Source: Marinobacterium arenosum
Lineage (GTDB): Bacteria > Pseudomonadota > Gammaproteobacteria > Pseudomonadales > Balneatricaceae
DNA: 44,171 nucleotides
Assembly (NCBI RefSeq): GCF_019795155.1
Contig: NZ_JAILYN010000013.1
Location: 50,950 to 95,120, forward strand
Direction of reading: 5' to 3'
The notes below the pieces were generated by a model, which had not been told where the DNA came from, made no database searches, and worked only from the letters and a program-made list of their open reading frames with translations. The position numbers were made by a program, and so were the translations under genes. Below, one piece after another: positions 8,676-18,143 of the stretch. Positions within the stretch are counted from its first letter, which is position 1. The number at the start of each line of letters is the position of its first letter.

Positions 8676-9128
8676 TCAGAGCTCATCCAGCCGGCCGGCA
8701 TCGCGCGCCATCCGCATCGCCTCGTGCCGCTCCAACTCCAGCAGCTGGCCGAGCAGTTCACGCGTCGATTCGGTATCCGCCTTGCCCAGCAGGTAGCGAT
8801 ACAGGCCGATCAGCCGCTCATGCTGGGTCAGCACCTCGGCAACGATCTGGTCACTGCTCATTTTGCTGAACTCCAGCGCCAGGATCAGCTGGATCGGCTG
8901 CTTGTCCAGGTATTCGCAGCACCAGGTATTCAACGCATTGGTACTGGCCTGCTGCTGGAAACCAAGCAACATGTGTTGCAGCAGGCGTTCATGCGCCGCC
9001 AGGTACTCCAGCAGCCACTGCACCTTGATATCCTGCCGCACCTTGGCACCCGACATCAGGTGCTGCGCCAGCTGGCGGTGAAACTCGCCGGTCCACTGAA
9101 GCACATCGCTCAGGGTTTCTAATTTCAT
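8676..9128 (-). CDS. Small all-helical protein linked to the nuclease/phosphorylase genes
   Basis: The 150-residue product looks entirely helical, with many conserved-type His, Glu and Trp residues: FHRQLAQHL, LEYLAAHERLLQHML, LNTWCCEYLD, VLTQHERLIGLYRYLL and LLELERHEAMRMAR. The spacing of E/H residues on successive helices recalls ferritin-like or hemerythrin-like bundles. I cannot assign a metal site with confidence. ATG 9128 is preferred over GTG 9131 because AAGGAG (9142-9137) then sits eight bases away. That site overlaps the TAA of the nuclease gene, so the two are coupled. It is the last of three genes with the phosphorylase and the beta-CASP protein, and its role is presumably tied to theirs. 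Confidence 0.75.
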   Translation of the reverse strand: MKLETLSDVLQWTGEFHRQLAQHLMSGAKVRQDIKVQWLLEYLAAHERLLQHMLLGFQQQASTNALNTWCCEYLDKQPIQLILALEFSKMSSDQIVAEVLTQHERLIGLYRYLLGKADTESTRELLGQLLELERHEAMRMARDAGRLDEL

Positions 9129-9140
9129 CACATCGGCTCC

Positions 9141-10496
9141 TTACAGGGTCAGGATATGGCGATAGCCGGCCACCTCTACCCGGTAGCGGGTCGTCCGGCG
9201 CAGAAAGTCGCGCTGTGCCTCCAGCGCATCGGGGTCACCATGGATCAGCTGGATGGCACAGTCATCCGGCAGCGCCGAGCCCTGCAGCCACTGCCCGATC
9301 TGCAGGTGATCCGCATGGCCGGACAAGCCATCCAGCATCTCGACCCGGGCACGGCACTCCACCCACTCACCATGGATCCTGACGCTTTCTACCCCCTGCA
9401 GCATCTTCGCCCCCCGGGTACCACCGGCCTGGTAGCCGGTCAGCAATACCGTGGTGCGGTGATCCGGCAACAGCCGCTTCATATGGTGCAGGATCCGCCC
9501 GCCGGTCACCATGCCACTGCCGGCGATGATGATATGCGGATAGTTCAGCTGCTCGAGCGCCTTGGACTGGTCGACACTGTCGACGTAGCTGACCGCCTGG
9601 TACATCCGGCGGCTCTGCTCCCGGTTCAGCCGCAGGTATTTGTTATACCGGCAGTAGATATCGGATACATCGATCGCCATCGGGCTGTCGAGATAGACAG
9701 GCAGTTGCGGTATCCGCCCCTGCTCCATCAGCGTCGCCAGCATATGCTGCAACAACTGAGCGCGACCGACGGCGAAACTGGGTATCAGCACGATGCCGCC
9801 CTTGGCGACCGTTTCGCTAACCACCCCGGCCAGCTGCTCAAAGGGATCGGTGTCGGTGTGACGGCGATCGCCGTAGGTCGATTCCAGCAACAGCAGGTCC
9901 AGTGCCGGCAGCGGCTGCGGTGGGTGCATAAACAGATCATCGGGCCGGCCGACATCGCCGGAGAAACCGACTGTTTTACCCTCACCCTGCAGAATCACGC
10001 TGCCGGCGCCAAGAATATGGCCGGCAGGCTGCAGGTGGAAGCGCAGACTGCCAACTTCGACCGGCTGCTCGAAACGGATCGGCTGGAACAGCTCCAGGCA
10101 ACGCTCCGCCGTCTGCCGATCGTACAGAGGCTCCGGGTGGGCATGCTTGCCGAGTCGATGACGGGCGTAGAAACGGGCATCCTCCTCCTGCAGGTGACCG
10201 CTGTCCGGCAGCAGGATGCCACAGAGCGCCTCGGTGGCGGGGTGGCAGTACACCGGCCCCCGATAGCCTTTGCTGTACAGCAGCGGGATATAACCGGAAT
10301 GGTCCAGGTGGGCATGGGTCAGTACCACCGCATCCAGCTGATCGATATCCAACGGCAGCGGCTGCCAGTTACGTTCGCGCAGCCACTTATAGCCCTGGAA
10401 CAGACCGCAATCCACCAACACCCGGGTATCGCCGCTATGCACCAGGTACTTGGAACCGGTCACCGTCTGGGTGCCGCCCAGGAAGATTATTTTCAT
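9141..10496 (-). CDS. MBL-fold / beta-CASP nuclease
   Basis: This 451-residue protein belongs to the metallo-beta-lactamase family with a beta-CASP insertion (CPSF73/RNase J relatives), zinc-dependent enzymes that usually cut RNA. Metal motifs are visible: THAHLDHSG (residues 60-68), a histidine in GHILGAGSV, an aspartate in GFSGDVGR, and the beta-CASP signatures STYGDRRH, PSFAVGRAQ and SGMVTGGRILHHMKRLLPD. The last metal histidine is in the SGHADH stretch. The start is the ATG at 10496, with GAGGAGGT just upstream. Open sequence extends further upstream but runs into the preceding gene. It lies between the phosphorylase (41-base gap) and the helical protein (overlapping signals), indicating one operon. 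Confidence 0.9.
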   Translation of the reverse strand: MKIIFLGGTQTVTGSKYLVHSGDTRVLVDCGLFQGYKWLRERNWQPLPLDIDQLDAVVLTHAHLDHSGYIPLLYSKGYRGPVYCHPATEALCGILLPDSGHLQEEDARFYARHRLGKHAHPEPLYDRQTAERCLELFQPIRFEQPVEVGSLRFHLQPAGHILGAGSVILQGEGKTVGFSGDVGRPDDLFMHPPQPLPALDLLLLESTYGDRRHTDTDPFEQLAGVVSETVAKGGIVLIPSFAVGRAQLLQHMLATLMEQGRIPQLPVYLDSPMAIDVSDIYCRYNKYLRLNREQSRRMYQAVSYVDSVDQSKALEQLNYPHIIIAGSGMVTGGRILHHMKRLLPDHRTTVLLTGYQAGGTRGAKMLQGVESVRIHGEWVECRARVEMLDGLSGHADHLQIGQWLQGSALPDDCAIQLIHGDPDALEAQRDFLRRTTRYRVEVAGYRHILTL

Positions 10497-10536
10497 TGCT
10501 ACCTCCTCGGCCATAACGGTCCGGCACGATGCACGC

Positions 10537-12051
10537 TCATAAACTCGCCTCACCGACGGTAAAGATATCGCGATTGTTACGGTAGTAATCCAATGCGTAG
10601 TCCCGTTCACCGGGGCTTTCGGCAAACAGGGTGAACAGTGGTGCCCCGGCCCGGGCGACATCGCCAACCTTGAGATGCAGCCGCAGGCCGGCAACGGTAT
10701 CGCCCGGCGCCCCGGCCAGTTTCGCCAGCCGGGCCAGCCGGCGGTTGTCGATCGCCTGCAGGATCCCACTACGGCACGCATTGACAGTTTCCTGGTAGCT
10801 GGCCTGCGGCAACGGCTTCAAGCCGCCCTGGGCCTCGGCGATCCGCTGGAACTGCCCCCAGGCGCGGCCCGAATCCAGAATCTCCGCCGCCTGCCGGTAG
10901 GCCGTTGCCACCCCCTGGCCATCGGCCATGTCGATCAACTCGGCCGCCAGCAGCAGTGCCCGTTCGCGCAGGTCCTGCGGCGCCTGCAGGTTTCCGCGCA
11001 GCACCGCCAGCACATCACGCGCCTCCTCCACCGGACCGATACCGCGACCGACCGGCTGACTGCCATTGGTCAGCAGGCAGCGCAGCTCGATCCCCAGCGC
11101 CTGACCCACCTCGCGGAACTGCTCGGCCAACCACTCGCCATCGGCCTGACTGCGCACCTTGGCGGTCTGTCCGACCGGGATATCGATCAGCACATGAGTT
11201 GAGCCGGCGGCGACCTTCTTGGAGATCACCGAGGCGATCAGCTGACCTTCGCCATCCAGGTCCAGCGCCCGCTCGATACGGATCATCAGATCATCGGCCG
11301 GACTCAGGTTGACCCGCCCGCCCCAGGCCAGGCAGGCGCCGGCCTGGTTGACCACCTGCTGCATCTCCGCCAGGCTCAGATCGACCCGGGTCAGGGTTTC
11401 CAGGGTATCGGCGGTACCGGCCGGCGAGGTGATCGCGCGGGAGGAGGTTTTCGGCATCACCAGGCCGGCGGCGCTGGCGATCGCCACCACCAGCGGGGTG
11501 GTCCGGTTGCCCGGCACCCCGCCGATGCAATGCTTGTCGTAGATGCGTTCGTGGCCGGGCCATTGCAGCCGTTCGCCGCACTCCACCATCGCCCGGGTCA
11601 GCGAGATGATCTCAACCAGGCTCAGCCGTTCGCCGACACAGGCGCTGATAAAGCTGGCAATCTCGATATCGCTGTATTGGTAGCTGCTGATATCGGCGAT
11701 GATGGCGTGGATTTCAACGGCATCGAGCCGATGCCCGTAGAGTTTCTTGCGCACCGCGCTCATCGACGCCACCAGCGGCGCGTGACCGACGCTGACCCGG
11801 TCACTGTCCAGCAGGTGCAGGCTGCGCCAGGCGATGCGCGACAGGCCGATATGGCCGGGCGGCAGCACGGACGGGGCGACCACGTTCAGTGTGGCGATCA
11901 GGCGCCGGCCCTGGTAACCGACGGTCAGCCGCGAGCTCGACTCGAACCCTTCGGCGCGGCAGATATCACAGTCTTCGCGCATATACACCACCGGCTCGTC
12001 ATGGGTATCGATACCCATGTTGAGGGCGGTCAGGATATGCAGATCGGGCAT
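10537..12051 (-). CDS. Archaeal-type nucleoside/AMP phosphorylase (putative thymidine phosphorylase family)
   Basis: This 504-residue enzyme belongs to the thymidine/pyrimidine phosphorylase superfamily, on the long branch that includes archaeal AMP phosphorylase. That branch converts nucleoside 5'-monophosphate plus phosphate to free base and ribose 1,5-bisphosphate. The extra N-terminal domain (about residues 1-95) is present. Phosphate and nucleotide motifs are KHCIGGVPGNRTTP (173-186) and KTSSRAITSPAGTADT (201-216), followed by LAWGGRVNLSPADD and ISKKVAAGSTHVLIDIPVG. The C-terminal barrel-sandwich domain is also present. ATG 12051 has GAGGA seven bases upstream. It is first in the operon with the beta-CASP protein and the helical protein. 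Whether it uses AMP, CMP or thymidine cannot be told from sequence. No RuBisCO or ribose-1,5-bisphosphate isomerase gene is in view. Confidence 0.88.
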   Translation of the reverse strand: MPDLHILTALNMGIDTHDEPVVYMREDCDICRAEGFESSSRLTVGYQGRRLIATLNVVAPSVLPPGHIGLSRIAWRSLHLLDSDRVSVGHAPLVASMSAVRKKLYGHRLDAVEIHAIIADISSYQYSDIEIASFISACVGERLSLVEIISLTRAMVECGERLQWPGHERIYDKHCIGGVPGNRTTPLVVAIASAAGLVMPKTSSRAITSPAGTADTLETLTRVDLSLAEMQQVVNQAGACLAWGGRVNLSPADDLMIRIERALDLDGEGQLIASVISKKVAAGSTHVLIDIPVGQTAKVRSQADGEWLAEQFREVGQALGIELRCLLTNGSQPVGRGIGPVEEARDVLAVLRGNLQAPQDLRERALLLAAELIDMADGQGVATAYRQAAEILDSGRAWGQFQRIAEAQGGLKPLPQASYQETVNACRSGILQAIDNRRLARLAKLAGAPGDTVAGLRLHLKVGDVARAGAPLFTLFAESPGERDYALDYYRNNRDIFTVGEASL

Positions 12052-12446
12052 TGTCAGTTCCTCGACGGCCTTTGACCCGCCCCGTTACGCTGCTCGGATC
12101 GATCGGCAAACAGAGATCCGTACGCTCCGAGACAACTCAGCGAAGAAACCGGGGGTACTCTTATGAATAGCATCAACCGGCAGAAGCTGCCGGTCTGGAC
12201 GCGCCGCTCAGGCGTCCCCCTGATGCTGAGCGTATTGCGAGGTAAAAGCACGAGGGGCGAGGACGGCAGCTCGGCCAGGATCAGGGACATTATTAACAGT
12301 CAGGCAACAGATGATCCTTCACCCCATTGCGGTTAGTGGCCGATGATTTGAAACCCTATGCGGTCCCTGGTTTGCGCCGTGCGTTTCCACCAATCCAAAT
12401 CGTCAGCATACGGACCTGGCTCGTTCGACGAACGAGCCGACCTATA
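12052..12446. other. 395-base gap between the phosphorylase operon and fic, with hairpins
   Basis: No convincing gene is seen. The stretch should contain the promoter of the phosphorylase operon. It holds CCGGCAG-AAG-CTGCCGG (12179-12195), GACGC/GCGTC around 12199-12217, and a perfect palindrome, GGCTCGTTCG-A-CGAACGAGCC, at 12418-12438. The last lies just past the fic stop and could end its transcript, though no T-run follows. A 57-codon plus-strand frame (12163-12336) and a 78-codon minus-strand frame (12054-12290) are present but show no family resemblance. Confidence 0.5.
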
Positions 12447-13529
12447 TCAGGCCTGCTCGCTAAGCAGCGCACACAGGGGCTCATTGATGTAGTAGTTGCT
12501 GCGACCGATCTTCGCTTTCAGCAGAAAGCCATGTTCGACCAGTTGATCCAGGTACTTGGTGGCGGTGATACGCGAGACGCCCAGATCATCCATGACAAAC
12601 TCGATTTTGGTGTAGGGGTGGTTGAACAGGTTGTTCAGCAGCTCCTGACGGTAGATTTTCGGCAGTTCTTCACGCATGCGATGTTTGTACTGGCGCATGA
12701 GTGCCTTCATGTTCTGGATCAGCGTGATGGTTGCCTGTGCGGTTTCGCTCACCCCATCCAGCATGTAAAGGAACCAGGGTTCCCACTCACCGGTTTCGCG
12801 CACCCGCTGTAGCTGGCGGTAGTACTCGGCCTTGTTGCGGATGAAGTAGCGGCTGAGGTAGAGCACCGGCAGGTTGAGCAGCCCCTGCGCCACCAGATAG
12901 AGCAGGTTCAGTATGCGTCCGGTACGGCCGTTGCCGTCATAGAACGGATGAATGCTCTCGAACTGGTGGTGAATAATCGCCATCTTGACCAGCGGGTCTG
13001 CATCACAGAGGCGATCGTCGTTGATATACCCCACCAGATTGTCCATCAGCTCCTCTATCTCTTTGGCATGCTGAGGCGGTGTGTAGATGATCTCTCCGGT
13101 ACGGGCATTTTTCAGATCTGTACCCGGGAGTCGACGCAGGCCGGCCCGGTTGTGTTCAAGGTGCTGCTGTACGGTCAGAATGTCGTTCAGGCGGATCAGT
13201 TTCTGCTGACGCACCACAGCAAATCCCTGCCGCAGGGCATAGGCATAGTCCTGCACCTCCTTCGCAGCGGGTTCGACTGCCGCTTCCGTCAATAGGTTGG
13301 CCTTATAGAGCGCATCGTGGGTGGTCACGATGTTCTCAATCTCGGAGCTGTCCTTTGCCTCCTGCAAACTCAGGGTATTGATCAGTATGGCTTCATTCGG
13401 GATGGTGGCCGCAACGCCTTTCAGCTCGGCCAGATAACGGTGTGCCTCTGCCGTCTTCTTCAGAACAGAGCGCGTCTCCAGTTCAGCAATGTTGCCAAGC
13501 GGCAGTCTGGGGATAGGATGGGTGGTCAT
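12447..13529 (-). CDS. fic: Fic-family AMP transferase with N-terminal inhibitory helix and C-terminal winged helix
   Basis: Fic proteins transfer AMP (or a related group) to hydroxyl side chains of target proteins. The 360-residue product has the full active-site motif HPFYDGNGRTGR (His194 to Arg205). The inhibitory motif [S/T]xxxE[G/N] appears as S61-SEI-E65-N66 before the Fic core. That makes it a self-inhibited class II Fic, so no separate antitoxin is expected or seen. The flap region NARTGEIIYTPP precedes the core. Residues about 290-350 form a winged helix (VMDDLGVSRITATKYLDQLVEHGFL), like the Shewanella Fic protein of known structure. That domain and the unusual AT-rich repeats at 13566-13656 suggest autoregulation by DNA binding. 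The target protein is unknown. Confidence 0.93.
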   Translation of the reverse strand: MTTHPIPRLPLGNIAELETRSVLKKTAEAHRYLAELKGVAATIPNEAILINTLSLQEAKDSSEIENIVTTHDALYKANLLTEAAVEPAAKEVQDYAYALRQGFAVVRQQKLIRLNDILTVQQHLEHNRAGLRRLPGTDLKNARTGEIIYTPPQHAKEIEELMDNLVGYINDDRLCDADPLVKMAIIHHQFESIHPFYDGNGRTGRILNLLYLVAQGLLNLPVLYLSRYFIRNKAEYYRQLQRVRETGEWEPWFLYMLDGVSETAQATITLIQNMKALMRQYKHRMREELPKIYRQELLNNLFNHPYTKIEFVMDDLGVSRITATKYLDQLVEHGFLLKAKIGRSNYYINEPLCALLSEQA

Positions 13530-13774: not shown

Positions 13775-14200
13775 TCATCGATCAGCGACATTTGGGGCTC
13801 CGACCGCCACCGTTCCCAGCGGGGTCGGCTGCGACAGGCGCGCTTCGATCCGGGCCAGTAACTCCTCGCGGTGGAACGGCTTACCGATGAAGCCCACCGC
13901 ACCCAGCTCGAACGCCCGCAGTTTGTCTTCCATCCCGTCCAAAGCCGACAGCATCACCACCCGGGTTCGCCAGCCGCAATCCCACATCCGCAAGCGCTTC
14001 AAGACCTTAAATCCGTCTACCTGGGGCATCATGATATCGAGCAGTACCAAGTCGAAGGTTTGCTGCTCGAGGCGCTGGATCGCCTCCTGACCACCCCGCG
14101 CAAAGCTCACCTCGTAGCGGTTGCCGTCCAGGATACTGTGCAGCAGCTTCAGATTTTCCGGTTCATCATCCACCGCCAGGATCTTGGGCTTTTTAGTCAT
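13775..14200 (-). CDS. Single-domain response regulator (receiver only)
   Basis: The 141-residue protein is one CheY-like receiver domain with no output domain. The acidic pocket is Asp11-Asp12, the phospho-acceptor is Asp55 (LVLLDIMMP), the switch Ser is at 85 (VVMLSALDG) and the conserved lysine is at 107 (GKPF). It starts at ATG 14200; longer reading upstream has no domain support. The C-terminal 17 residues look unlike a receiver tail. A different frame over the same stretch reads ERWRSEPQMSLIDEAIQVV then a stop at 13756-13758, so a one-base slip near 13820 may have changed the end. No histidine kinase is adjacent. The neighbourhood contains decayed DNA. Confidence 0.85.
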   Translation of the reverse strand: MTKKPKILAVDDEPENLKLLHSILDGNRYEVSFARGGQEAIQRLEQQTFDLVLLDIMMPQVDGFKVLKRLRMWDCGWRTRVVMLSALDGMEDKLRAFELGAVGFIGKPFHREELLARIEARLSQPTPLGTVAVGAPNVADR

Positions 14201-14612
14201 CAAATACTCGCTATTCCGTGCAGATAGCGAAGGGGACCCGAATTTAGCGGCGCAGACAGTCAATAGTGCCGCACAAAAAACGTACATTCCCCTTCGACGT
14301 CTAGGGACGTATAGAAGCCGCCAAGAGTGTTTTCCGGTCCCTAAAACTAATAGACAAGGCAAGATGTGCAATGCAGCGGATCACTTATTATCACCAATAG
14401 CCCCCCATGAACGCTTCTCACGCCGCTTACAATACCCGGATATCCATAACAAAAAGGCTCCGTATCAGGCTAATACGGTCTTGGTAAGGTGTATCTATGA
14501 CCTGATGCGTCAGCCGTGTGGACGGCTGCAGACTATCGCCCGAGCAGGTCGGTGACAGGAATAGAATTCTGGACTGAGAAGTGGTCAGAGCTACGAAAAA
14601 CCGCCGCCGGTG
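14201..14612. other. Long non-coding, probably decayed stretch
   Basis: About 400 bases upstream of the response regulator carry no recognisable gene. A plus-strand open frame crosses it antisense to the regulator start and lacks a ribosome site and family resemblance. The stretch adjoins the transposase remnant at 14613-14726, which suggests it is debris of an old insertion. Promoter elements for the regulator must lie near 14220-14260 but I see none that are clear. Confidence 0.4.
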
Positions 14613-14868: not shown

Positions 14869-16704
14869 TTACTCGACGGTAACCGACTTGGCCAGGTTAC
14901 GCGGCTGGTCGACGTCGGTGCCTTTCAGTACTGCCACATGGTAGGACAGCAATTGCAGCGGCAAGGTATAGAGGATCGGTTCCAGTTCGCTGCTGACCTG
15001 CGGCACTTCCAGTACCTGCACGCCGCTCTCCGGCTTGACCTCCTGGGCGCAACCGGCAAATACGAACAGTTCGCCGCCGCGGGCGCGCACCTCCTGCAGG
15101 TTGGCCTTCAGCTTGTCGAGCATGTCGTTGCGCGGCGCCACGGTGACCACCGGCATCTCCTTGTCGACCAACGCCAGCGGGCCATGTTTCAGCTCGCCGG
15201 CCGGGTAGGACTCGGCGTGGATATAGGAGATCTCCTTCAGCTTCAGCGCCCCCTCCATCGCCACCGGGTAGAGGGTGCCGCGGCCGAGGAACAACGCGTG
15301 CTGCTTCTCGGCAAACGCCTGCGCCATCTGCCGGATCGCCGGGTCCAGCTCCAGCGCCTGCTGCAACAGTTGCGGCAGCTGCTGCAGGTCGGTGACGATA
15401 CGCTGTTCATCGGCCTCGGCCAGGCCGTGGCGGCGGCCCAGTGCCAGGGTGGTCAGCAGCAGTGCCACCAACTGGGTGGTGAACGCCTTGGTGGAGGCGA
15501 CACCGATCTCCGGACCGGCATTGGTCATCAGGCTCAGGTCGGATTCGCGCACCAGCGAGCTGCCCGGTACGTTACAGATCGCCAGGCTGGCCAGCACCCG
15601 CTCCTTCACTTCACGTAGCGCCGCCAAGGTATCGGCGGTTTCGCCGGACTGGGAGATGGTCAGCAGCAGGGTTCCCTGCGGCAGCACCACCTTGCGGTAG
15701 CGGAATTCGCTGGCCACCTCGACCATACAGGGGATGCCGACCAGCTCCTCGAGCCAGTATTTGGCGATCAAGCCGGCATGGTAGCTGGTACCGCAGGCGA
15801 CGATCTGGACCTGGCGCACCTGATCGAAGATCGCACCGGCTTCAGCACCGAATGCCTGCTCCAGCAACCGACCGTTGCTGGTTCGGCCAGCCAACGTGGC
15901 CTTGACCACCTCCGGCTGCTCGTAGATCTCCTTCAGCATGTAGTGCTTGAAGGTGCCTTTGTCGGCCGCGCTGGTACCGTGCTCGTACTGCACCACCGGA
16001 TGTTCAACCGGCTCACCAGCAGCGTTCCAGACCTGGATCGCGTCACAGGTCAGCCGGGCGATATCGCCCTCCGCCAGGAACATGAAGCGGTCGGTGACCT
16101 GCAGCAGTGCCAGCTGGTCCGAGGCGATGAAGTTTTCGCCGCCCAGGCCGACGCCGATCACCAGCGGGCTGCCTTTACGTGCCGCCACCAATTGATCCGG
16201 CTGGTCGGCGCTGATCACGCCCAGCGCGAACGCCCCTTCCAGCTGGCCGGTTACCGCGGCGACCGCCGCCACCAGGTCATGCTGCGGCTGACGGGCCAGT
16301 TCGCGGGCCAGCAGGTGGGCGATCACCTCGGTATCGGTGTCGGAGCTGAACGGATAACCTTCCGCCTGCAACTGCGCTTTCAGCGGCTCGAAGTTCTCGA
16401 TGATGCCGTTATGCACCACCGCCAGCCGCTCGCCGGACATATGCGGATGGGCATTGCCTTCGGTCGGCTTGCCGTGGGTCGCCCAGCGGGTGTGGGCGAT
16501 ACCCAGACCGCCAGCGAGCGGCTGTTCGGCGGCGGCATCGCTCAACGCCTGCACCTTGCCGGCGCGACGCAGCCGCTGCAGTTGCTCACCATTCCAGAGC
16601 GCCACCCCGGCCGAGTCGTAGCCGCGATACTCCAGCCGACGCAGGCCTTCCAGCAGGATCTCCATCACCGGCCGTTGGCCGACCGCACCTACAATTCCAC
16701 ACAT
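14869..16704 (-). CDS. glmS: Glutamine-fructose-6-phosphate aminotransferase (isomerising)
   Basis: GlmS makes glucosamine-6-phosphate from fructose-6-phosphate and glutamine, the first step toward UDP-GlcNAc for peptidoglycan and LPS. The 611-residue length is normal. The N-terminal nucleophile Cys2 (MCGIVGAVG) follows the initiator Met. The glutaminase domain covers about residues 1-220 with HTRWATHGKPTEGNAHPH. Two SIS domains follow (about 285-430 and 455-600) with CGTSYHAG, TISQSGETADTLAAL, NVPGSSLVRESD and GRGTLYPVAMEGALKLKEISYIHAE. The canonical C-tail ends LAKSVTVE. It follows glmU by 80 bases on the same strand. No Gram-positive glmS ribozyme is seen. Confidence 0.98.
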   Translation of the reverse strand: MCGIVGAVGQRPVMEILLEGLRRLEYRGYDSAGVALWNGEQLQRLRRAGKVQALSDAAAEQPLAGGLGIAHTRWATHGKPTEGNAHPHMSGERLAVVHNGIIENFEPLKAQLQAEGYPFSSDTDTEVIAHLLARELARQPQHDLVAAVAAVTGQLEGAFALGVISADQPDQLVAARKGSPLVIGVGLGGENFIASDQLALLQVTDRFMFLAEGDIARLTCDAIQVWNAAGEPVEHPVVQYEHGTSAADKGTFKHYMLKEIYEQPEVVKATLAGRTSNGRLLEQAFGAEAGAIFDQVRQVQIVACGTSYHAGLIAKYWLEELVGIPCMVEVASEFRYRKVVLPQGTLLLTISQSGETADTLAALREVKERVLASLAICNVPGSSLVRESDLSLMTNAGPEIGVASTKAFTTQLVALLLTTLALGRRHGLAEADEQRIVTDLQQLPQLLQQALELDPAIRQMAQAFAEKQHALFLGRGTLYPVAMEGALKLKEISYIHAESYPAGELKHGPLALVDKEMPVVTVAPRNDMLDKLKANLQEVRARGGELFVFAGCAQEVKPESGVQVLEVPQVSSELEPILYTLPLQLLSYHVAVLKGTDVDQPRNLAKSVTVE

Positions 16705-16784: not shown

Positions 16785-18143
16785 TCAGGCCTTACGCGGC
16801 TTCTGCCAGCTGCTGATATTGCGCTGTTTGCCACGGGCGACCGCCAGTTCGTCGTCGGCCACCGCTTTGGTGACCGTCGAGCCGGCCGCCACGGTGGCAC
16901 CGGCGCCGATCTGCACGGGCGCGACCAGCGAACTGTTGGAGCCGATGAAGGCGCCGTCGCCGATCTCGGTGCGGAACTTGTTGACGCCATCGTAGTTGCA
17001 GGTGATGGTGCCGGCACCGATGTTAACCCCCTGGCCGATCAGGCTGTCGCCGACATAGCTCAGGTGGTTGACCTTGGAACCCGGGCCGATCCGGGCTTTC
17101 TTGGTTTCGACGAAGTTGCCGATCTTGGCCTTGTCGGCCAGTTCGGTACCGGGCCGCAAGCGCGCGTAAGGGCCCACTTCGCAGCCGGCGCCGACCTGTG
17201 CCTGCTCAAGGTGGGAGTTGGCCTTGATATGGGCGCCGTCGGCGATCTCGGAGTCACGGATCACGCAGTTCGACTCGATTAGCACGTTGTTGCCGATCTT
17301 CACCCGCCCTTCCAGCACCACGTTGATATCGATGCAGATATCCTGGCCGTGCTCGATCTCGCCACGCAGGTCGATGCGGGCCGGATCGGCCAGGGTGACG
17401 CCACCAAGCATCAGCTGTTCAGCCTGCTGCTGCTGGTACCAGCGTTCCAGGGTGGCCAGTTGCAGCCGGTTGTTGACCCCCTGCACCTCCTGCTCACAGC
17501 CCGGCTGGATCGCCTCGATCGGCATCCCCTGGCCGGCCGCCATGGCGATGATATCGGTCAGGTAGTACTCGCCCTGGGCATTCTCCGCCGACAACTGCGG
17601 CAGCCACTCGGCCAGCGCTTTGGCCGGCAGCGCCAGGATGCCGGTGTTCACTTCACGGACCGCGCGCTGCGCCTCGCTGGCATCCTTCTGCTCGATGATC
17701 GCCACCACCTGCTGCCGTTCATTGCGGATGATGCGGCCGTAGCCGGTCGGATCGGCCAGTTCGACGGTCAGCAGGCCCAATTTGCCCTGGGCGGCGATAT
17801 TGACCAGCTGCTGCATGGTCTGCTGTTCGGTCAGCGGCACATCACCGTACAACACCAGTACCACCCCCTCACCTACTGCCGGCATCGCCTGGGCCACCGC
17901 GTGACCGGTCCCCAGTTGCTGCTGCTGCAGGGCAAATGTCAGCGGCTGACCGGCCAATGCCTCACGCAGCTGGTCGGCGCCATGGCCGATCACCACGTGC
18001 AGTTTGGCATTGTCCAGCTGGCTGGCCCGGTCGATCACATGCTGAACCATCGGCTTGCCGCCGACCCGGTGCAGCACCTTCGGCAGCGCGGATTTCATAC
18101 GGCTGCCCTGACCGGCAGCGAGGATGACCACATCGACAGACAT
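16785..18143 (-). CDS. glmU: Bifunctional GlcN-1-P acetyltransferase / GlcNAc-1-P uridylyltransferase
   Basis: GlmU performs the last two steps to UDP-GlcNAc. The N-terminal nucleotidyltransferase (about residues 1-230) has LAAGQGSRMKSALPKVLH, then LYGDVPLT and a GRI...IEQKDAS stretch. The C-terminal left-handed beta-helix (about 250-452) carries hexapeptide repeats and the acetyltransferase residues in RPGTEL...GNFVETK and KVNHLSYVGDS, followed by GAGTITCNYDG. The 452-residue length is typical. It heads a glmU-glmS operon, so enzymes for the whole GlcN-6-P to UDP-GlcNAc route except GlmM are together. A TrmB-like regulator is divergently transcribed 120 bases away. Confidence 0.98.
   Translation of the reverse strand: MSVDVVILAAGQGSRMKSALPKVLHRVGGKPMVQHVIDRASQLDNAKLHVVIGHGADQLREALAGQPLTFALQQQQLGTGHAVAQAMPAVGEGVVLVLYGDVPLTEQQTMQQLVNIAAQGKLGLLTVELADPTGYGRIIRNERQQVVAIIEQKDASEAQRAVREVNTGILALPAKALAEWLPQLSAENAQGEYYLTDIIAMAAGQGMPIEAIQPGCEQEVQGVNNRLQLATLERWYQQQQAEQLMLGGVTLADPARIDLRGEIEHGQDICIDINVVLEGRVKIGNNVLIESNCVIRDSEIADGAHIKANSHLEQAQVGAGCEVGPYARLRPGTELADKAKIGNFVETKKARIGPGSKVNHLSYVGDSLIGQGVNIGAGTITCNYDGVNKFRTEIGDGAFIGSNSSLVAPVQIGAGATVAAGSTVTKAVADDELAVARGKQRNISSWQKPRKA

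Follow-up and report, generated by a model that had tools for sequence, protein, structure and literature searches.

A phosphorylase, beta-CASP nuclease and helical-protein operon in Marinobacterium arenosum as a putative reduced ribonucleotide-salvage unit

A compact operon lies on the minus strand of a 44,171-nucleotide (nt) stretch of the Marinobacterium arenosum genome (contig NZ_JAILYN010000013.1, positions 50,950 to 95,120), which is referred to here as the window and comes from a 4.8 Mb assembly in 115 contigs. Its three intact, tightly spaced open reading frames (ORFs) encode, in order of transcription, a phosphorylase, a beta-CASP metallo-hydrolase and a helical protein (Table 1). As the first-pass annotation had proposed, they form a tight operon, with gaps of 40 nt and 12 nt, and the last two genes have overlapping signals, in that the TAA stop codon of the nuclease gene overlaps a TAAGGAG sequence. 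A longer nuclease ORF begins at 10781; this upstream start was judged spurious because the ATG at 10496 follows GAGGAGGT. The helical protein has an alternative start, GTG at 9131, one codon upstream of the ATG at 9128, and its residues are numbered from that GTG below. The same three neighbors recur in many genomes, and the arrangement is therefore more than a chance one.

Table 1. Features of the operon, its upstream region and the PhnN gene of the same genome (positions in the window, except for PhnN)
Feature	Position	Strand	Basis or remark
Nucleoside monophosphate (AMP) phosphorylase-like protein, NF003338/TIGR02645, 504 amino acids	10537..12051	-	ORF and family models
Phosphorylase-nuclease gap, 40 nt, with GAGGAGGT ribosome-binding signal	10497..10536	-	
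Beta-CASP/RMMBL metallo-hydrolase, TTHA0252-like putative ribonuclease, 451 amino acids	9141..10496	-	ORF and domain models
Nuclease-helical gene gap, 12 nt	9129..9140	-	Nuclease stop TAA overlaps TAAGGAG signal
Helical protein, 150 amino acids	8676..9128	-	ORF; start ATG 9128 by comparison with relatives
Weak FNR/FixK-like palindrome, 8/10 positions	12163..12176	-	111 nt upstream of phosphorylase; p 0.12, not significant
PhnN, own genome	L193:7188-7751 (G000:C94)		Beside apaG-ksgA-pdxA-surA-like genes, judged by eye

The window phosphorylase passes NF003338 (643.5 bits vs a cut-off of 434) and, over its full length, TIGR02645 (565.4 bits vs 434.6), models that carry the names thymidine phosphorylase and putative thymidine phosphorylase. 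Ordinary thymidine phosphorylase (DeoA) was rejected at 140.4 bits against the TIGR02643 cut-off of 570.7, which agrees with the earlier assignment of the enzyme to the archaeal type. The AMP_phos equivalog TIGR03327 also falls below its cut-off (470.3 bits vs 535), and the protein is therefore filed as one that works like an AMP phosphorylase rather than as a confirmed one. The closest solved structure is 4ga5 (E 4e-101), which we take to be the AMP phosphorylase of Thermococcus. The positions of that enzyme that contact AMP are presumably G168, 194-199, T203, D256, S264 and K288, and when the 4ga5 alignment was read by eye against them, the IGG, SRAITS and AGT motifs and the catalytic Asp, Ser and Lys were identical. 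The family and these conserved contact residues make phosphorolysis of nucleoside monophosphates (NMPs) the likely activity of the window enzyme. The Thermococcus NMP phosphorylase accepts AMP, CMP and UMP and converts NMPs to ribose 1,5-bisphosphate (R15P) (PMC9700705).

In a class sample of 274 gammaproteobacterial genomes, the window phosphorylase (query P0001) has matches in 67. Seven of these are weak matches of the ordinary type and were not counted, leaving the archaeal-type phosphorylase in 60 genomes. The nuclease lies near it in only 15 of the 60 (the window and 14 of the 59 others, two of these 14 pairs being 2.5-4.5 kb apart), and the helical protein in two, G268 and the window. 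This sparse pairing, the model names and the missed AMP_phos cut-off would fit a nucleoside phosphorylase that acts on thymidine or uridine and has the nuclease as an unrelated neighbor. However, the thymidine-phosphorylase models lie far under cut-off, with TIGR02643 at the score given above, the AMP-contact residues are conserved, and the nuclease linkage recurs in many genomes of the lineage; we regard a nucleoside phosphorylase as a long shot.

The second gene product is a beta-CASP metallo-hydrolase, as previously claimed. It scores 119.5 bits with Pfam Beta-Casp (cut-off 27.7) and 38.6 bits with RMMBL (cut-off 21.6), its MBL domain is also above cut-off, and the HAHLDH and later motifs are present and invariant among three relatives. 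Its nearest solved relative is the ribonuclease TTHA0252 (E 7e-80, residues 1-427 of 451). Cas14 of type VII CRISPR systems was rejected as an identity for this protein (NF045584, 348.1 bits vs a cut-off of 800; CRISPR arrays were not searched for).

The neighborhood was examined by scanning a genome collection with a six-row alignment of the helical protein. Two rows are operon members (the window and L046), which gives the scan a mild bias toward operon-type helical proteins. The scan found 82 relatives and yielded 80 loci, the named relatives being mostly Gammaproteobacteria, and neighboring genes at these loci were scored by tblastn. The nuclease gene is directly upstream of the helical gene in 27 of the 80 loci and the phosphorylase is present in 22, so the co-occurrence that the first-pass annotation had put forward for checking was found, and adjacency of the trio in this genome only is ruled out. 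Going beyond that annotation, 17 of the 80 loci carry a six-gene unit in the order phosphorylase, phosphoribosyl pyrophosphate (PRPP)-synthase paralogue, nuclease, helical protein, acetate-kinase-like and phosphoketolase-like, and the window copy is reduced. By the distances used, 51 loci have none of these neighbors; two within this group, L109 and L156, show kinase or phosphoketolase matches farther away or on the opposite strand. Many loci are near copies of one another, the 79 usable helical proteins collapsing to 41 at 90% identity. L185 duplicates L046; the trees exclude it, but it is counted among the 80 loci and also among the 81 matched paralogue stretches discussed below. L249 and L250 coincide with L132 and L136.

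Of the 80 stretches, 56 contain a heavy-metal P-ATPase match, among them 15 of the 17 with six genes; the protein used as the query passes the model of the copper-ATPase subfamily. The phosphoketolase-like proteins of the unit (for example L046:9629-11983, L052:4709-7066 and L120:11964-14312) appear to be divergent relatives of phosphoketolase, because Pfam XFP cut-offs are passed (L046 tested) but the best NCBIfam phosphoketolase scores, 113-141 bits, are far below cut-offs of at least 777. The acetate-kinase-like gene likewise passes its Pfam cut-off and misses its NCBIfam cut-off.

The unit moves between genomes, since near-identical phosphorylases are found in Alcanivorax, Cycloclasticus and Methylophaga and a copy of the unit resides on plasmid pWTT2411 of Methylophaga pinxianii (L217), where it lies among copper-protein genes. 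Plasmids also carry the phosphorylase family, with 114 records matching at E up to 1e-60. The phosphorylase was not found in three of three genomes of the same genus as the window (one only 71% complete), and this absence suits horizontal gain.

The main difference between the window and its relatives is the PRPP-synthase paralogue, which matches NF005537. It adjoins the phosphorylase in 56 of 59 assessable class genomes (G058 is cut by a contig end); the three exceptions are the window, G216 and G146. Each of the 22 helical loci with a phosphorylase carries it. Among closer relatives, for which 20 of 29 other matches were fetched, 16 of the 19 loci that could be assessed carry it, L251 being cut by a contig end; the three loci without it are L252 and L266, whose hosts have two phosphorylases, and L267, with a single copy. 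The gap between the phosphorylase and nuclease genes of the window is the site that the paralogue occupies in relatives, and no paralogue was found in the window operon or in the rest of the genome. The genome has one PRPP synthase (PrsA), 29% identical to the paralogue and with the ordinary loop PDVGG. In quick trees, the window phosphorylase (SH-aLRT 100) and the window nuclease (SH-aLRT 99, with a long-branch warning) are nested in the helical-operon group. Because the trees place the window within a lineage that bears the paralogue, the simplest account is that the window operon is a reduced copy from which the paralogue was lost.

The paralogue itself departs from ordinary PRPP synthases. 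The segment that we take, from PRPP-synthase structures, to be the pyrophosphate loop reads GPDxE(S/A)xQW in 76 of 81 paralogue stretches, copies included. Three more have Glu at the same place and two fragments (L203 and L148) do not cover the loop, so that Glu is found in 79 of 79 covering stretches. It is also found in 18 of 18 paralogues from relatives and two plasmids, two of which repeat places of the first set. Ordinary PRPP synthases, namely the genome's own PrsA and five PDB sequences, have Gly there. The replacement of the loop Gly by Glu, while 22 aligned paralogue rows retain the RQD of the ATP site, the catalytic K.R and the DD of the ribose-phosphate segment (by eye), suggests an enzyme that is still active with changed phosphate handling. 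Because Glu replaces the Gly of the ordinary PDxG loop, the paralogues (L046:5332-6273 and others) may be wrongly annotated as ordinary ribose-phosphate diphosphokinases.

Loss of the paralogue could also mean that the window operon is a decaying remnant, that is, a horizontally acquired unit that lost the paralogue, lacks the acetate-kinase-like and phosphoketolase-like genes and retains no working pathway. Neither the paralogue, in the operon or the genome, nor an XFP_N match was found; the phosphorylase was not found in the same-genus genomes as described above; and phosphorylase loci without the paralogue occur in relatives as well (L252, L266 and L267). However, all three reading frames are uninterrupted, their ribosome signals are good and the catalytic motifs are conserved, and the genome encodes PhnN, which offers a replacement. 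We consider decay unlikely.

The fate of the sugar was examined across the whole genome. The first-pass annotation had no RuBisCO in view, and none was found in the genome either (no PF00016 match); R15P isomerase was not searched for. Phosphoketolase gave no XFP_N match, a model that does match the phosphoketolase-like gene of the relatives (46.6 bits), and the genome has two acetate kinases. PhnN, which converts R15P to PRPP (PMC9700705), is encoded in the genome (217.9 bits vs a cut-off of 156). Because the paralogue and a phosphoketolase were not found and PhnN was, the route from NMP through R15P to PRPP is the best supported in this genome, at about even odds. The proposal that the sugar goes toward PRPP has support: the paralogue is the usual neighbor of the phosphorylase and PhnN is present. 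The window itself lacks the paralogue. Of the PRPP-synthase and ribose-bisphosphate kinase genes that the first-pass annotation proposed to look for beside the trio, the former is seen in relatives as the paralogue, whereas the PhnN gene of the window genome is on another contig.

The phosphorylase could instead run in reverse, making NMPs from free bases and R15P, so that the operon would serve base salvage and the nuclease an RNA quality role. Against this, carbon-phosphorus (C-P) lyase (PhnJ), which is among the known sources of R15P, gave no match in the genome, no R15P-making gene was recognized beside the operon, and the extension of 17 of the 80 helical loci to acetate-kinase-like and phosphoketolase-like genes suits sugar breakdown. 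The reverse direction is very doubtful.

These data allow a mechanism to be proposed. The operon would be a reduced version of a salvage unit for ribonucleotides in Gammaproteobacteria, with R15P becoming PRPP through PhnN in this genome, a reading to which we give an even chance. Judging from its family, the beta-CASP enzyme would trim RNA; the phosphorylase, from its family and AMP-contact residues, would convert NMP and phosphate to base and R15P. In the relatives, R15P probably passes to the PRPP-synthase paralogue and then to the phosphoketolase-like and acetate-kinase-like enzymes. In M. arenosum, it would most likely be turned into PRPP by PhnN, whose gene is found elsewhere in the genome, a step that would yield PRPP without the ordinary PRPP synthase.

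The distribution of PhnN in the class sample bears on this salvage reading. At a threshold of E up to 1e-30, PhnN is present in 14 of 274 genomes: 8 of the 60 with the phosphorylase and 6 of the 214 without it (Fisher p 0.0034). Among phosphorylase-bearing genomes, it occurs without PhnJ in the window genome and in G146, G058 and G033, the last under the model cut-off. Several points weigh against the salvage reading. The PhnN gene is on a different contig from the operon, and the search for it, in which no more than 12 candidates were scored for each genome, may have missed cases. Half of the PhnN-bearing phosphorylase genomes (4/8) also have C-P lyase, whose presence explains PhnN there, and PhnN occurs without PhnJ in four phosphorylase-less genomes (G162, G056, G154 and G193). 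No PhnN match was obtained in G216, whose phosphorylase is not accompanied by the paralogue. PhnN is found in two of the three paralogue-less class genomes, the window included (p 0.035, or 0.20 without the window), and a strict exchange of the paralogue for PhnN is only suggestive. The missed AMP_phos cut-off and the nearness of nuclease and phosphorylase in only a quarter of the genomes that bear the latter (15/60) count on the same side.

A more specific idea starts from copper. In S. aureus, copper is reported to inhibit Prs and to reduce PRPP (PMC10249872), and copper islands might carry the unit for that reason. The lineage would then hold a mobile route to PRPP and energy that bypasses the ordinary PRPP synthase under copper stress. 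RNA would be cut to NMPs and these split to R15P; the Glu-loop paralogue would move one phosphate rather than two, for example R15P + AMP to ribose 5-phosphate (R5P) + ADP, a reaction that is our own suggestion; and R5P would feed the phosphoketolase-like and acetate-kinase-like enzymes. The window genome would have replaced the paralogue by the R15P kinase PhnN, which would turn this R15P into PRPP. We hold this copper-linked scheme to be conceivable but rather unlikely.

The third protein gave no family above cut-off in family-model searches, and no solved relative was found from the single sequence. It has matches in 9 of the 274 class genomes, and its own genome contains three copies. The two further copies, G000:C67:607-1065 and 17068-17559 (L062), are about 16 kb apart, and no phosphorylase or nuclease match was found near them within the 20 kb fetched. 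The conserved residues are H18, H47, E48, H104, E134 and E137. In 42 aligned members (alignment A4, from which L186 was excluded because its helical gene is frameshifted), H18, E48 and E134 are invariant, followed by H104 (41/42), H47 (40/42), E137 (38/42) and H136 (35/42). Weak Ferritin matches occur in 11 of the 42 (best E 4.5e-5), the window member not among them, and weak Rubrerythrin matches in five; unrelated families also match seven or eight. Of the solved structures, a designed diiron protein matches the helical profile best (E 0.005), and further designed bundles are among the matches. With low confidence, we suggest that the protein is a ferritin-like four-helix metal-binding accessory bundle. 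Plasmid-borne relatives are annotated as 'ATPase' or hypothetical; we find no grounds for the 'ATPase' label. The nuclease and helical genes may form a sub-module, because the pair occurs in Photobacterium (L108, L141, L144 and L169) with no phosphorylase match in the stretch.

FNR/FixK regulation was considered and rejected. Upstream regions of 300 nt were scored for 71 phosphorylase units, counting the window and copies but not L122, which was too short; 3 of the 71 matched 9-10 of 10 positions, vs 15 of 495 control upstream regions, with no enrichment. Perfect or near-perfect FNR-type boxes lie about 115 nt upstream of the phosphorylase in L076, L091 and L095. The operon is a few kb downstream of glmS (14869-16704), with a Fic-domain-like protein (12447-13529) and a response regulator (13775-14371) in between, both judged by eye. 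The glmS neighborhood is a known attachment site for Tn7 and genomic islands; no Tn7 genes were recognized in the window ORF list, and no copper genes in the window itself.

The archaeal-type phosphorylase family is named 'thymidine phosphorylase', though it is nearly always accompanied by the PRPP-synthase paralogue (56/59). If the salvage reading is true, many bacteria would have an unrecognized route from nucleotides to R15P, and the paralogue would be a misnamed enzyme with a testable, altered chemistry. The frequent nearness to metal-pump genes would then tie copper tolerance to PRPP supply.

Part of this unit is already in print. In Bradyrhizobium diazoefficiens, bll3117-bll3116-bll3115 (thymidine phosphorylase family, ribose-phosphate pyrophosphokinase and MBL fold) is predicted to form an operon that carries a FixK2-type motif, and bll3117 and bll3115 are expressed at a lower level in a fixK2 mutant (PMC9104804, table). 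The phosphoketolase/acetate kinase pair bll2518-bll2517 is listed likewise in the same table, and bll3115, bll3116, bll3117 and bll2518 are among the differential proteins and genes of microoxia (PMC6515984, table). The available parts of these two papers assign no pathway to bll3117-bll3116-bll3115. R15P metabolism is placed in archaea and, through PhnN, in E. coli (PMC9700705). A literature search, with subscription papers largely outside it, found no pathway for the bacterial phosphorylase/PRPP-synthase/nuclease unit and no copper link. Against the earlier suggestion of an undescribed pathway, the phosphorylase/PRPP-synthase/nuclease operon itself is already on record in print. Overall, this is a genuine operon that recurs and has been catalogued in part, no function being assigned to it in the literature found; the window holds a reduced variant of it.

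The six-gene unit is hosted by Alcanivorax, Kangiella, Cycloclasticus, Haliea, Thalassolituus and others, and is shorter in Methylophaga. The 22 phosphorylase-bearing helical loci keep the gene order of the window, with identities to it of 60-67% for the phosphorylase, 62-67% for the nuclease and 36-47% for the helical protein. The six-gene relatives carry the PRPP-synthase paralogue, usually DUF5676, and the acetate-kinase-like and phosphoketolase-like genes, whereas the window operon is without them; the P-ATPase of 15 of their 17 stretches is likewise not beside it. Compared with TTHA0252, the Thermus beta-CASP ribonuclease (PDB 2dkf/3iek), the window nuclease keeps the catalytic motifs in a different operon context. 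The Bradyrhizobium operon resembles the window in joining the phosphorylase and the MBL nuclease in one predicted operon. However, it keeps the PRPP-synthase gene, includes no helical protein as predicted, and has a FixK2-type motif, whereas the gammaproteobacterial units show no enrichment of FNR-type boxes in their upstream regions. With the archaeal NMP shunt, or pentose bisphosphate pathway, of Thermococcus NMP phosphorylase, R15P isomerase and RuBisCO (PMC9700705), the window shares a homologue of the phosphorylase and, by inference, R15P. In contrast to that shunt, no RuBisCO was found in the M. arenosum genome, and the phosphorylase gene is instead linked to those of a nuclease and a helical protein.

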